DNA from: a virus
Reading direction: 5' to 3' (one strand)
Virus record (IMG/VR): IMGVR_UViG_3300042355_000290
Location: 1 to 43,019 of that record
Length of the DNA stretch: 43,019 nt
This document shows, piece after piece, positions 3,922 to 43,019 of this stretch; the first letter of the stretch is position 1, and every line of letters begins with the position of its first letter. A program made the position numbers and the translations under genes. A model generated the notes under the pieces. That model saw only the letters and a list, made by a program, of their open reading frames with translations, was not told the DNA's origin and did not search any database.

Positions 3922-4407
3922 TCATTCTGCTTCACTCCAGTTTTCCTTACCATCGTTGGTGGAGGAATCCCAGTAAGTCTGTACAACTTGCTTATACTTA
4001 GCCTCAGCTTTATCTATTGAAGTGAAATGTCCTAGGTACCTGTTTAATCCATTGATCTGAACACAAGCTCTATAACCGTCCCTCTCTTTATACACCCCTT
4101 TAGGTAAGCCTGACTTTTTATTACTGTTAACTTTCATGTTTAAGGCATTGCCAACTTTAGTGGTAACTCTAAGGTTAGCTCTTCTGTTATCCAGACCATT
4201 ACCGTTCTTGTGATCAACGATATGATTTGAATCAATTACACCCAACAAGACTCTGTGTAGGTATTGTTTGTAGTAAGGTTGGGTATTGATTGCTACGTGT
4301 TTTAGGTCTCCTCTTATTACCACACTTAACCCAAGAGTTGATACAAACTCAGCGTCAGTTTTATCTACGAGCAGTTCGTGCTCAGCTGCTATCCTAAATC
4401 GCTCCAC
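3922..4407 (-). CDS. HNH homing endonuclease with AP2 domain (copy 2)
   Basis: Product of 161 aa with a GTG start preceded by GGAGGTGAAAG. The HNH core is YLHRVLLGVIDSNHIVDHKN followed by GLDNRRANLRV (about residues 50-82). The AP2-like region is SGLPKGVYKERDGYRACVQI then RYLGHFTSIDKAEAKYKQ. It is diverged from copy 1 (1932-2459) but has the same domain order. Its first 19 nt overlap the end of the DNA polymerase gene, so the ribosome site lies inside the polymerase coding sequence. It is probably a mobile gene inserted at the 3' end of the polymerase gene. Confidence 0.9.
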   Translation of the reverse strand: MERFRIAAEHELLVDKTDAEFVSTLGLSVVIRGDLKHVAINTQPYYKQYLHRVLLGVIDSNHIVDHKNGNGLDNRRANLRVTTKVGNALNMKVNSNKKSGLPKGVYKERDGYRACVQINGLNRYLGHFTSIDKAEAKYKQVVQTYWDSSTNDGKENWSEAE

Positions 4408-15001: not shown

Positions 15002-16009
15002 TTAAAGAGTTGAGTCAATATTAACTTCTTTGCGCATTTGATTCTGTACCATATCCCACTTAACTTTAGCTTTAAGCCAAGCAAAACGAGTAGGGTATTC
15101 AAGAATGGATGGTTCAGAAGTTGGCGCACCCATTAACATTGCAGAGAAGTTTGCTGTTTCTACTGTATCATCATCGCTCAGAATTCTGTATGCAAGTGAT
15201 GAAGATGCTAAATCCCAATCTCCCAGACCTAGAAAGTTTTTATTCTTATCCTTACCGCTTCTGAGCATCTCCATTAAAGTGTGTGCATAGATTGTTCCGT
15301 GAGGAATGTTTTCTTCACAGTGTTCAATCAGTTCTTGCAGATCATCTAGAGGTATAGCAAAGATAGCATCTTTGTTTATACACTTGCGAATGATTTGTTT
15401 CCAATATGCAGCCAAGCTGATCGGTGCATTGTTTACTAGAGTTTGAGATTGTGGGAAGTTACCTGCTATTTCTGCCCAATCTGCAATTTGAGTAGCTAAT
15501 TGAATCTCTCGATGCGGAGATTTAATTAGTTTCTCCAATGCATTCTCTCTCATAATGAGATCACGTGATTGATTATAAGATGCATAACCATCACGCCATT
15601 CTTCGATTGAGTGCTCCCAATTTGCAATCCAGTATTCTATATTGGAGAGATCACAAGTATCTGGAGTGATTGCAATGCGTGGTGCTTGGAAAGATGGATG
15701 TTTAATTAGATTCATCTTACCTATACAGATAGTAAGATCTTCCATTTGATTGTATACAATTCCAGATGTAATCGCAGTTCGTTTGCAAGGTACTCTGAAT
15801 TCAGCTAAGTCTGATGATGCAAGTAGAGCAACAAACAGAAGATATGAATCAGTTTCTGTAAGTTCACCTGCACTGAACTTAGGTATGAATGAGAGCAACT
15901 TTCGTTGAGATAGTGCAAAGATTGGGTGAGTTACTTCTCTGCTAGTTAGATACGCAGGGAAATGATCACAGGTAAATTCTATACCCGATATTCCGCATAA
16001 AATACGCAT
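15002..16009 (-). CDS. Unknown early protein (335 aa)
   Basis: Product of 335 aa, mostly helical, with no membrane segment, P-loop or nuclease motif that I can see. Segments include ILCGISGIEFTCDHFPAYL at the start, a Trp-rich middle (IEYWIANWEHSIEEWRDGY) and FAWLKAKVKWDMVQNQMR near the end. GAGGAATTAAA precedes the ATG; the HNH gene ends 10 nt upstream. Size and place near the candidate origin make a replication or loader role conceivable, but there is no direct evidence. Confidence 0.78.
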   Translation of the reverse strand: MRILCGISGIEFTCDHFPAYLTSREVTHPIFALSQRKLLSFIPKFSAGELTETDSYLLFVALLASSDLAEFRVPCKRTAITSGIVYNQMEDLTICIGKMNLIKHPSFQAPRIAITPDTCDLSNIEYWIANWEHSIEEWRDGYASYNQSRDLIMRENALEKLIKSPHREIQLATQIADWAEIAGNFPQSQTLVNNAPISLAAYWKQIIRKCINKDAIFAIPLDDLQELIEHCEENIPHGTIYAHTLMEMLRSGKDKNKNFLGLGDWDLASSSLAYRILSDDDTVETANFSAMLMGAPTSEPSILEYPTRFAWLKAKVKWDMVQNQMRKEVNIDSTL

Positions 16010-16019
16010 TTTAATTCCT

Positions 16020-16457
16020 CTACTTTAGTGTGTTTAATTTAGCAAACTCTCCAAAATACTTTAGAGCAGCTAAGTTGTAAGCTTTAGCTGCCTCTTCTGG
16101 AGAAAGATAGGTTCCTAATTGTATTACCTTGTAATTAACTGTTATACGTGCTTCCCACTTCTTTTTGTTTCTACTGCTGGTGCTTACTCCTTTATAACCT
16201 GTTTTACTATCTACTCTTATTTTTGAGTTGGCTGCATTTTGTGATCGCGTGCATATACGAAGGTTACACCTTCTGTTATCTGTACGTATGCCATTTATAT
16301 GATCTACATCCATACCCTCAGGACAATTCATTATAACTCTGTGTATTAGATATCTTACTTTGTTTCTTTCTAGCACAGCATAGTTATTACTATCTATAGA
16401 GTAGAACACCCGCAAGTGTTCATCTTCTGGATCAAGTAATACTGTTTTCATGTTCAT
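16020..16457 (-). CDS. HNH homing endonuclease with AP2 domain (copy 3)
   Basis: Product of 145 aa. The HNH core is LIHRVIMNCPEGMDVDHING then RTDNRRCNLRIC (about residues 37-68). The AP2-like domain is TGYKGVSTSSRNKKKWEARI then LGTYLSPEEAAKAYNLAALK. It is more compact and AT-rich than copies 1 and 2. It sits between the terminator at 16557-16594 and the 335-aa gene. GAGGGAATTCATC precedes the ATG, and the ATCATGAACATG start context is shared with the 240-aa early gene. Confidence 0.9.
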   Translation of the reverse strand: MNMKTVLLDPEDEHLRVFYSIDSNNYAVLERNKVRYLIHRVIMNCPEGMDVDHINGIRTDNRRCNLRICTRSQNAANSKIRVDSKTGYKGVSTSSRNKKKWEARITVNYKVIQLGTYLSPEEAAKAYNLAALKYFGEFAKLNTLK

Positions 16458-16556
16458 GATGAATTCCCTCTGTGGTTAATGTTAGGTCATATTGTATTAT
16501 TCTTGTAAGATAAACCACAGAAGGGATCAGGAGATTGATTGTAATTCTACAATCAG

Positions 16557-16594
16557 CAAAAACACACATTCATTTAATTGAATGTGTGTTTTTG
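16557..16594. terminator. Bidirectional terminator hairpin downstream of the 51-aa gene
   Basis: A perfect 16-bp stem (16557-16572 with 16579-16594) and a 6-nt loop (TTTAAT). The stem base is five A:T pairs, so either strand's RNA carries a U run. It lies 22 bp past the 51-aa gene stop. A second inverted repeat (16536-16543 with 16548-16555, 8 bp, loop ATTC) lies directly beside it. Confidence 0.75.
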
Positions 16595-16615
16595 AGGGTG
16601 GAATTCTGCAATCAA

Positions 16616-16771
16616 TTAGAATCTTACAGGTGAGCGCTGGAACATAACATAGTATGCCATACTAAAACTGACATTGCGATTTCTGAGCCAGCGCACAAAA
16701 CTATAAGAACCGATCTGATTGCGAAATGCGCGCAGTGATTCGAATGTGTAGAATTTGGATTGAATGAACAT
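16616..16771 (-). CDS. 51-aa basic protein
   Basis: ATG at 16771, stop TAA at 16616-16618. The product begins MFIQSKFYTFESLRAFRNQI and ends in FQRSPVRF. It is strongly basic (Arg/Lys) and aromatic, with no acidic residue except one Glu. Support: the repeated early leader (AAAGAAAGCGAGAATCTATT) stands directly before the ATG, and a perfect terminator follows the stop. Function unknown; the charge suggests nucleic-acid or membrane contact. It is the first gene leftward of the candidate origin. Confidence 0.65.
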   Translation of the reverse strand: MFIQSKFYTFESLRAFRNQIGSYSFVRWLRNRNVSFSMAYYVMFQRSPVRF

Positions 16772-16824
16772 AATAGATTCTCGCTTTCTTTGGTTATGTT
16801 GCTGGTTTGAATTAACTTAACTTG

Positions 16825-17242
16825 AAAATATGCGACACGGGCAGCGAGGCTGCACTACCTGAATGCCTGAATGCCTGAATGCCTGTATCATCATGCCCCT
16901 TGTTGGGGGTGCCGTCAAGCGGCATTTATTACTTACACAACTTGATGTATTCTCACCTAACCTAACATTGCATGTATGTGTCTGATACTTAATTATCTAC
17001 CCTCTCTCCCTTTCCTCACACTTTATAGGGTATCTTTAAAAATAAGAATATAAAAGATAGAGTGTGGTAGTTAGATATAGATATATAGATAGAGTTAGTT
17101 ATAGATAGTAATCATGATCTGGTAGTTAGATAGCAGTGAAAGTACTGTATGGAATCACAGTATGGGTGAGGGGTGGGGTCACAGGCATTCAGGCAGTGAG
17201 GCAGTGAGGCATTCAGGCAGTGCAGCCTGTGTCGCATATTTT
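16825..17242. other. Candidate replication origin / control region
   Basis: The intergenic stretch 16772-17316 has no gene. Its outer parts form an inverted repeat: 16825-16838 with 17229-17242 (14 bp, perfect) and 16847-16868 with 17207-17228 (22 bp, one mismatch). Inside the left arm CTGAATGC occurs three times in tandem; the right arm has alternating GGCAGTGA/GGCATTCA units. A GC-rich hairpin cluster lies at about 16893-16925 (for example TGCCG-TCAAG-CGGCA). The centre (about 17030-17115) is AT-rich with TAGATA repeats, and GGTAGTTAGATA recurs at 17066-17077 and 17121-17132. Iterated units, dyad symmetry and an AT-rich core are typical of replication origins; the function is inferred. Confidence 0.55.
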
Positions 17243-17264
17243 GCTGGAAGTTACAAAGCATACA

Positions 17265-17292
17265 TAAATCGCCCATATTTCAGAGCGATTTA
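17265..17292 (-). terminator. Stem-loop after the 240-aa early gene
   Basis: An 8-bp stem (17265-17272 with 17285-17292) and a 12-nt loop, 24 bp beyond the stop of the gene at 17317-18039. The U tail is short (ATTTA), so termination would be partial. Confidence 0.4.
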
Positions 17293-17316
17293 AATCTGAT
17301 CTGTTATCAGAGTGTA

Positions 17317-18039
17317 TTACAGCCCGAGTTCATCAATCACTGGAAGCGTAGCTGCTTGCAACTTCTCAAGCATCTTTTCCTCCAGTGCTGTGCCTGACAT
17401 AACATTAGCGAAAACCAGTTCAATCTTCGCCTTAACTTCATCCTTAAATGCTGGCTTGCGTTCAGCCAAGCTAACAATCAGGGGCTTATAGTTCATTGCG
17501 ATTTTGATGAATTGCAGACCTTGTTCCGAGTTCCAGAAGCCGTCAGAATCAATTGCGACACCACGACTCGAAGCAAGAAAGCTAGCAATCGAACCCTTAT
17601 TCAATTCAAACCATGCAGCGCAGCTTTCTTTAGTGACTCGGACAGTCACTGATTCTGCTGCACCGAGTTCAAATAGTGCTTCCATACTCACATCATGTTC
17701 AGTAGGCGAACGTTTGAATTCACGATACACGTTACTAACTGCTTTGTTCTGTAAGCTGGCGATGTAATCCATAACCAGCGCCATGCCGCGTTCTGAATTG
17801 GTGAATGCAGTAGCGAAACCATGTGAGACTTCTGGGAGTTGGCAATACTGAGATACCAGGCCGGTGTCAATAACATTGCCTTCCTTATCCTTCTGCGACT
17901 TCACAATGATCCGTACTTCTCTGTAGCCTGCTTTGATTGCATGACCTGCGGGAACTGCTGCAAGATCGGTCAGGCCATAGACAACGGTGTTTGCGGGAAT
18001 GATTGCGGGATTGTTCAGATTTTGATTAAGCATGTTCAT
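17317..18039 (-). CDS. First early gene, unknown protein (240 aa)
   Basis: Product of 240 aa from the ATG at 18039 (MNMLNQNLNNPAIIPANTVV); AAGGAATC lies upstream. The longer frame to 18099 would reach into the promoter. The protein has a beta-rich N-terminal half (VVYGLTDLAAVPAGHAIKAG, REVRIIVKSQKDKEGNVID) and a helical C-terminal half (IELVFANVMSGTALEEKMLE). No family recognised. It is the first gene of the leftward operon, directly behind promoter P18098, and its codon choice suggests good expression. First-expressed phage genes often act on the host; that is inference. Confidence 0.78.
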   Translation of the reverse strand: MNMLNQNLNNPAIIPANTVVYGLTDLAAVPAGHAIKAGYREVRIIVKSQKDKEGNVIDTGLVSQYCQLPEVSHGFATAFTNSERGMALVMDYIASLQNKAVSNVYREFKRSPTEHDVSMEALFELGAAESVTVRVTKESCAAWFELNKGSIASFLASSRGVAIDSDGFWNSEQGLQFIKIAMNYKPLIVSLAERKPAFKDEVKAKIELVFANVMSGTALEEKMLEKLQAATLPVIDELGL

Positions 18040-18097
18040 GATGATAGATTCCTTATGAGTTAAGTATCCGGCCAGCACTGCGCTAGCCAGTGACTCC

Positions 18098-18125
18098 ATT
18101 CTAGCACCTGCAAATTAAAAGTCAA
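18098..18125 (-). promoter_or_regulatory. Sigma70-like promoter of the early (leftward) block
   Basis: On the minus strand: -35 TTGACT (18120-18125), a 16-bp spacer and -10 TAGAAT (18098-18103). The expected start is near 18090, about 50 nt upstream of the ATG at 18039. The leader includes a small dyad (CACTG...CAGTG). Confidence 0.68.
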
Positions 18126-18196
18126 GGGAATTTCAAACTATTTTCATCCTTTATCGCATGTAGTGAATGATTCTCATTCAGTCTAACTTGTCAGAC

Positions 18197-18228
18197 AACC
18201 TGCTAACCTGCTAACCTGACAACCTACC
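18197..18228. repeat. Tandem 8-bp repeats with flanking dyad, possible operator
   Basis: Four consecutive 8-mers begin AACCT: AACCTGCT (18197), AACCTGCT (18205), AACCTGAC (18213) and AACCTACC (18221). The block is bracketed by an inverted pair TTGTCAG (18188-18194) and CTGACAA (18216-18222). It lies between the early promoter and the late start, a natural place for a regulator-binding site. A short GC-rich element (GGCGGGGGTAGGGGCC, then TTTTT) and an A/T run (about 18318-18342) follow. Confidence 0.5.
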
Positions 18229-18395
18229 TGCATTCATAACTCATAATTACAGGCGGGGGTAGGGGCCTTTTTAGTTGCTCGCGTGCAGTCCTTCTAATGT
18301 AACCTATCTCCTAAACCTAAAAATTTTTAAAAAATATTATACAAACACCGCAACACACCATTCACAGAGTGTGATCCCTGCAGCATTGTTTTGTA

Positions 18396-25430: not shown

Positions 25431-25871
25431 ATGTACTACGAACCTATAACAACCCCTTGTCAACTATCGCCCTACGCACCTAACTCAGATGGCTATGCTC
25501 ACGTGGAGAAGTTGGTTAACGGACGAAGAAAGTCTATTAAACATCATCGACTTGTGTACGCAGCGTTTCACAGGATGGGAATAGAGGAGATGAAAAACTT
25601 TGTTGTTATGCACAAGTGCGATAATAGACTGTGCATAAATCCTGAGCATCTTATGTTAGGAACTGTAGCAATGAACAACAAAGATAAATTAGGTAAGGGA
25701 AAGAATATAGGTTTTGCTCTCGGTAATAAAGTAGGCGCAACCAAGATGACAGCAGAAAAGGCAAACGAACTCCGTGCAGAAGTAAATGCCTCTCATAAAA
25801 CACTGGCAGAGAAGTATGGAATCAGTGTTGGCTTAGTGTCAATGATCATCAACGGAAAGCGCTGGAAATAA
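25431..25871 (+). CDS. HNH endonuclease with C-terminal HTH
   Basis: Product of 146 aa. The HNH_3-type core is HHRLVYAAFHRM followed by VVMHKCDNRLCINPEHLMLG (His-Asn-His; about residues 37-80). The C-terminus (ANELRAEVNASHKTLAEKYG, ISVGLVSMIINGKRW) is a helix-turn-helix that probably reads DNA. Unlike the three early copies it has no AP2 domain. It lies between the capsid gene and the next structural gene, with a strong AAGGAG site. It is probably a mobile free-standing endonuclease in the late operon. Confidence 0.88.
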   Translation: MYYEPITTPCQLSPYAPNSDGYAHVEKLVNGRRKSIKHHRLVYAAFHRMGIEEMKNFVVMHKCDNRLCINPEHLMLGTVAMNNKDKLGKGKNIGFALGNKVGATKMTAEKANELRAEVNASHKTLAEKYGISVGLVSMIINGKRWK

Positions 25872-42646: not shown

Positions 42647-43019
42647 ATGCTTATGCAATCTCAAGTAGGGCCAATCGCAACCGCTCAGTCAATCACTCCT
42701 GGTACTATGGTGCCTGTGCGTGCTGGTCAGTTGGGGGAGACAATTGTAACTGATCTGCATGGTAAGTACTACGAGAATACTTATCGCCGTAACGTGTTCT
42801 CTGCTGCTAACGCTGCAGGTATTGCAACGTCAGTAGGTTTGGCAACTGCTTGCACTGGTTTGATTATCTCTAACCCTGTAGGCTCTACTGTTAACGTAGT
42901 CCTCAGCCGCGTTGGTCTTTCATTCTCAGTTGCCTTCCCTGCCGCTTCTGTTGTCGGCCTGATGGTAGGTTATAACTCTGCAGTGAACGTAACTCACACT
43001 ACTCCTGTTGTCGGTAAGA
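42647..43019 (+). CDS. Virion structural protein, 5' part (continues at contig start)
   Basis: The gene starts at 42647 (MLMQSQVGPIATAQSITPGT) with AAGGAG 7-8 nt upstream and is open to the window end. It joins in frame to 27-416, giving about 212 aa. The segment shown is beta-rich (PVRAGQLGETIVTDLHGKYY, LATACTGLIISNPVGSTVNV). No named family; the last gene of the late block and probably a virion protein. Confidence 0.85.
   Translation, partial: MLMQSQVGPIATAQSITPGTMVPVRAGQLGETIVTDLHGKYYENTYRRNVFSAANAAGIATSVGLATACTGLIISNPVGSTVNVVLSRVGLSFSVAFPAASVVGLMVGYNSAVNVTHTTPVVGK
42894..43019. repeat. 126-bp terminal direct overlap, right copy
   Basis: Exact copy of 25-150. Upstream of 42894 the sequence continues the gene, whereas upstream of 25 it is the fold-back artefact, so this copy shows the true context. 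Confidence 0.95.

Follow-up and report, generated by a model that had tools for sequence, protein, structure and literature searches.

A long-range dyad between operons as a candidate replication origin with a putative embedded early promoter in a group of environmental podoviruses

A 418-bp element built as a long-range dyad was characterized in a podovirus-like genome (IMG/VR virus record IMGVR_UViG_3300042355_000290; 43,019 bases, the whole of which is referred to here as the window), and among the readings considered the one ranked best is a replication origin fused to an early leftward promoter, to which we assign a probability of roughly 55%; a promoter/operator region alone ranks second. 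Comparison of sequences indicates that the plan of the element is kept in a fixed place across related phages while its letters turn over. The first-pass annotation of this DNA had proposed a phage replication origin here, and that proposal gains from the plan found in relatives, the iteron-like arrays around an AT-rich core, the inter-operon position and the weakening of a packaging role; it does not gain from the GC skew of the window, and it had overlooked an asymmetry of the dyad, a leftward promoter in the left arm, which is added by the present analysis.

The window closes into a circle through a 124-bp overlap (positions 27–150 equal 42896–43019); the first 26 bases of the contig are an inverted fold-back artefact. 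Leftward early genes, which encode a family A DNA polymerase, a DUF3987 primase/helicase-like protein, a Dda-like helicase, an AAA_24 ATPase and nucleases, are located on the left side of the element, and rightward late genes run from TerS/TerL onward on its right side. The replication genes belong to the operon adjoining the element. The window TerL is 32–38% identical to those of Aeromonas phage P5, Polaromonas phage Tiera and the Fredfastierviridae phages PaMx41, PaP2 and 119X. The two conserved genes flanking the element encode proteins of 335 aa (left) and 260 aa (right), neither of which shows a recognized initiator family or a useful fold match: the 335-aa protein belongs to no known family and its model (pLDDT 82) matches no solved fold, and the 260-aa protein, aligned with a total of 7 sequences, gave a poor structural model (pLDDT 69). 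A single family of HNH endonucleases, phrog_99, is represented by three genes, at 16020–16457, 1932–2459 and 3922–4407; the first sits between the 335-aa gene and the element and is probably a homing insertion, because it has no counterpart in the fetched loci. The gene-free stretch that holds the element had been given as 545 bp, a length that stands if a doubtful 51-aa ORF (16616–16771) is counted as a gene; otherwise, the gap extends from 16458 to 17316.

From the outside inward, the element is composed of 14-bp arms, inner arms carrying tandem units, a GC-rich segment on the left and a G-rich segment on the right, TAGATA-type repeats, and the core (Table 1). The inner arms contain a 22-bp pair with one mismatch (16847–16868 and 17207–17228), which is located inside a gapped pair of arms of 62–64 nt, and the 8-bp tandem units run in opposite orientations on the two sides of the element. 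A composite unit, GCCTGAATGCC, is found only in the element, with two copies on each side (0.01 expected per strand). The outermost arms are perfect yet not iterated. The 14-bp and 22-bp arm pairs, the 8-bp units and the GC-rich hairpins described in the first-pass annotation were all recovered, as were the AT-rich core with its TAGATA repeats and the direct repeat, which measured 13 bp (12 bp had been reported). The further statement that no other region is built in this way holds for the inverted repeat; shorter 8-bp tandem units (AACCTGCT) are also present at 18194–18225, in the divergent intergenic region beside a conserved site near TerS.

Table 1. Coordinates of the element, its parts and neighbouring features in the window.
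Feature	Position	Strand	Remarks
Whole element, long-range dyad	16825..17242	.	418 bp; early-operon side on the left, ORF1-type gene on the right
Outer left arm AAAATATGCGACAC	16825..16838	+	14 bp; perfect complement of 17229-17242
Outer right arm	17229..17242	-	14 bp; pairs with 16825-16838
Inner left arm with 8-bp units	16847..16885	+	CCTGAATG x3.5 at 16858-16885
Inner right arm with inverted 8-bp units	17182..17228	-	CAGGCATT/CAGGCAGT-type x5 at 17182-17221
Sigma70-like promoter TTGACG-N17-CATGAT	16890..16918	-	leftward; -10 side abuts left unit array; consensus match 9/12
Two short GC-rich hairpins CCCCTTGTTGGGG, TGCCGTCAAGCGGCA	about 16893..16927	.	within promoter region
AT-rich palindromic core CACACT..ATCTTT..AAAGAT..AGTGTG	17017..17066	.	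candidate unwinding region; corresponds to the CCCCACTTAAAA / GGGTGT cores of relatives
TAGATA-rich tract with 13-bp direct repeat TGGTAGTTAGATA	17065..17132	+	TAGATA repeats 17072-17107; TGGTAGTTAGATA at 17065 and 17120
G-rich tract ahead of right arm	17164..17184	+	
Bidirectional terminator-like hairpin	16556..16595	.	perfect stem; left of element
Terminator-like hairpin	17265..17292	-	between ORF1-type gene and element
335-aa conserved early protein gene	15002..16009	-	left neighbour of element; homologue in 28 loci
260-aa ORF1-type protein gene	17317..18099	-	3' end faces element; homologue at same position in relatives
Conserved TerS-side site	18255-18328 (approx.)		divergent region before TerS; GGGGGtrggagCCTTTTT-N~20-TCCTA-N~12-AATTTTnCTAAACTTTTT

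No other long-range inverted repeat of the 43-kb genome scores as high as the element: its ungapped score is 24, and the next unrelated place reaches 14. Six Markov simulations of 43 kb gave at most 13, and 100 simulations of 1 kb that kept the local composition gave at most 15. Its single-strand folding is likewise well beyond expectation (z = −8.1). It is present as a single copy in the window genome; searched as DNA, it had no counterpart among phage records, and its plasmid hits were confined to short repeat units.

Relatives were gathered by a TerL scan, which returned 80 loci of 60–84% identity, and the 40 loci with enough upstream DNA, the window counted in, were scanned for gapped inverted repeats, a score of 30 corresponding to the 95% level of simulations and 35 to the maximum of 120 simulations. 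In 26 of the 40 loci, the top-scoring inverted repeat exceeds 30 and is located 1.9–3.6 kb upstream of the TerL match; in 21 of them it exceeds 35. Wherever an ORF1-type gene is recognizable, it points its 3′ end at the element, with the 335-aa gene located further left. Relatives sharing the neighbouring genes thus have arms in the same place, kept as architecture and not as sequence. The unit sequences themselves (TTATCCCG, ATTGACCA, CTAGACCG, GCAGACTGT, TGCCAGAA, AATCAT and others) are unrelated except among near relatives; similar units of 6–9 bp are found in most, not all, relatives, and one of them (L025) has a perfect 32-bp arm pair without tandem units. A left arm scores a median of 41 against its own right arm and 16 against the right arms of other phages, and in 20 of 31 elements it finds no better partner than its own, most exceptions having their unit type in common. 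Across the 31 elements, the AT content averages 70% in the middle third versus 54% in the arms, and the purine skew of the left half is below that of the right half in 28. By inspection, the core stem is of the type CCCCAC...GTGG in some relatives and GGGTGT...ACACC in others, and the plan is also recognizable in Tiera, L022 and L058.

A counterpart in the Fredfastierviridae (PaMx41, PaP2 and 119X) likewise lies between ORF53 and ORF1 and contains opposed TCAAGGTA-type units and an AT/G-rich centre, but its pairing is weaker than that of the window element (fold z about −2); no experimental role for it was found in the papers that were accessible. No such inverted repeat was found in Aeromonas phage P5 (TerL 38%), and a search of viral contigs with the 260-aa neighbour or the arm pattern found nothing; relatives were obtained through TerL alone. 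In Tiera (OQ067478), a phage of Polaromonas sp. B16, the element occupies 43613–44085 of the record and has two head-to-tail copies of its right part (~43930–44075), a ~72-bp unit ending in GGGGATATAACGAAC. The related contigs L023 and L029 carry a second long inverted repeat (score 38–39) at about −1.5 to −1.2 kb from TerL, before TerS.

Promoters were called as consensus matches, not as mapped starts, and the 9/12 match in the window is not significant by itself. The sequence GTCAA (TTGAC on the minus strand) is present in the left half of 25 of the 31 elements versus 5 expected, and a sigma70-type pair with at least 10 of 12 matches points leftward from the left half in 15 of the 31 versus about 1.5 expected, the other three combinations of half and strand remaining at background level. 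Exact TTGACA occurs leftward in the left half of 18 of 28 elements and in none of them in each of the other three combinations (0, 0 and 0), and the relative L026 carries a perfect TTGACA-N17-TATAAT. In 11 of 24 loci, where 1.0 would be expected, a terminator facing ORF1 transcripts adjoins the element on its right. The promoter-like site and the flanking terminators suggest that the element is an operon boundary with an early-type promoter of its own.

Since the promoter is built into the left arm, early-gene control is either part of the function of the element or a real rival to it. If it were the whole function, a phage regulator bound to the units over the −10/start region and to the distant right array would form a DNA loop that shuts the leftward early operon, and the element would be no origin. 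The placement of the −10 side in or beside the unit array, the spacing of about 300–500 bp between the paired arrays and the position at an operon boundary all accord with this alternative, but it leaves the conserved AT-rich palindromic core, the symmetric C-rich/G-rich flanks and the non-iterated outer arms unexplained, and looping has no need of complementary outer arms; we consider it distinctly less probable than an origin with a promoter.

According to the preferred reading of an origin fused to an early promoter, an initiator encoded by the phage would bind the 8-bp units, oppositely oriented on the two sides, and thereby melt the AT-rich core between the arrays. Bidirectional loading of the phage replisome (the DUF3987 primase/helicase-like protein, the Dda-like helicase and the family A DNA polymerase) would follow at the melted core. 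Early genes would be expressed from the embedded leftward promoter, with transcription helping the DNA to open, and the terminators would hold outside transcripts off the element. Initiator binding alone is an insufficient explanation of the outermost arms, perfect but non-iterated as they are. A tentative and rather unlikely extension is that the origin is selected for foldback symmetry over sequence, its arms being kept complementary by template switching or by the need for a cruciform or hairpin; this would cover the private sequence of each phage species on one plan, the non-iterated outer arms and the swaps of C-runs and G-runs between sides.

Several known origins offer comparisons. The SV40-type origin combines inverted initiator sites, an AT tract and an early promoter in one control region; the analogy is one of working only, as the virus and its proteins are unrelated, and is offered as a lead. 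In phage P4, the short iterons of ori and crr, which are kilobases apart, occur in both orientations and are used by a primase-helicase initiator, whereas the element described here is compact and no P4 alpha protein was recognized among the proteins scanned. Two of the features by which iteron origins are known, tandem short repeats of near-constant period (8-bp units, 3.5 and 5 copies) and an adjoining AT-rich region (71% AT in the middle third), were found. Lambda-type phage origins are defined by iterons and an AT-rich region, and ori-lambda, with its O-protein iterons and AT-rich tract, resembles the element in having repeated initiator-type sites by an AT-rich region and a link to an early promoter (PMC7466680). 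In contrast to ori-lambda, the candidate is intergenic, its units are of 8 bp rather than 19 bp and form two inverted arrays about 300 bp apart, the unit sequence varies between related phages, and no O-like protein was found. Origins of RepA_N-type plasmids and of the Vibrio cholerae satellite PLE are likewise made of non-coding repeats that contain inverted sub-repeats, and those of PLE are required for replication (PMC7145576); they are, however, local semi-palindromic direct repeats rather than one giant dyad, and no RepA_N protein was seen in the window.

If the element is an origin, it provides a defined candidate replication start for the environmental podovirus group related to the Pseudomonas phages PaMx41, PaP2 and 119X. 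It would belong among the iteron-plus-AT-rich origins, in a new form, and would offer the uncommon situation of a conserved plan with changing letters, making co-evolution of origin and initiator testable across dozens of natural variants.

A role in packaging, in which the terminase would cut in the middle of the element and the arms would become inverted terminal repeats of the linear virion DNA, is improbable. The GenBank records of PaP2, 119X, PaMx41, PaMx46 and relatives have both their ends at the centre of the counterpart region, and several metagenome contigs begin within the element; contig breaks are, however, expected at repeats in any case, the other Jamesmcgillvirus records FBPa48, 20Aug470, Neko, TF17 and PaMx32 cross the centre without gap or duplication, and the window and many relatives assemble as closed circles. 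Moreover, the separate site on the TerS side is strongly conserved in sequence in about 30 relatives as well as in Tiera, PaMx41 and P5, the PaMx41 counterpart being at about 2040–2110. The genome ends of Tiera were sought with PhageTerm before the genome was rearranged (PMC9959647), and its record begins and ends inside this site, which is therefore a good candidate for the terminase cut site; Tiera also carries the element, at a distance of about 1.3–1.7 kb from it. Shea, a phage close to PaP2 with public reads (SRR35438347), is reported only as having terminally redundant ends (PMC13348215). Judged from sequences and record ends, there is a good, not final, case that the virion ends lie at the TerS-side site and not at the element, and the packaging role appears weakened; the separation of the element from the conserved site indicates where genome ends should be sought.

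The possibility that the arms pair in a transcript, forming one large stem of a structured RNA, was dropped after the strand tests. Nearly all of the elements fold better than shuffles, on both strands, and the two arms change together; in a transcript stem, however, G-U wobbles should outnumber A-C mismatches on one strand, and the arm mismatches show no strand bias (29 G.T versus 34 A.C), so that the symmetry probably works as DNA and not as RNA. Likewise, stability favours the plus strand in no more than 12 of 28 elements, and no Rfam family came near its gathering score for the element. In addition, no transcript need hold both arms, because the only recurrent promoter starts between the arms and proceeds leftward and a terminator is often present to the right of the element. 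We regard a structured RNA as very unlikely, and the same holds for a partition (centromere-like) or maintenance site of an extrachromosomal carrier state: Shea, a relative, reportedly persists in episomal form (PMC13348215) and the general shape of inverted arrays recalls that of partition sites, but no partition gene was recognized among the part of the window proteins that was scanned, and the early promoter and nearby replication genes fit replication better. A MITE-like mobile element, to which terminal inverted repeats without a large ORF might point, is scarcely credible and was rejected, given that the position is conserved without sequence conservation, the sequences at this fixed place in relatives being unrelated; the single copy, the empty DNA search of phage records (with plasmid hits to short repeat units alone) and the lack of an evident target-site duplication also speak against it.

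Cumulative GC skew had been suggested as a check on the origin. After detrending, 11 of 13 genomes have low values (0.03–0.35 of the range) at −2.2 kb from TerL; in the window, it reaches a level of 0.90 at the element, near the maximum, and the minimum is located elsewhere, ~6.4 kb downstream of the TerL start. Because genes switch direction nearby, the skew is confounded and cannot decide the matter. The DnaA-box cluster typical of a host DnaA-dependent origin is absent: the window element contains no DnaA box, and the element of the relative L010 contains one pair. This pair (L010:3321–3353) is inverted and DnaA-box-like, and a pair with the same 24-bp spacing is present in coding sequence of the window at 25606–25638. 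In another relative, six DnaA-box-like sites (TTATNCACA) are clustered within 212 bp in the divergent region before TerS (L069:4035–4247) and may represent a second or host-dependent origin.
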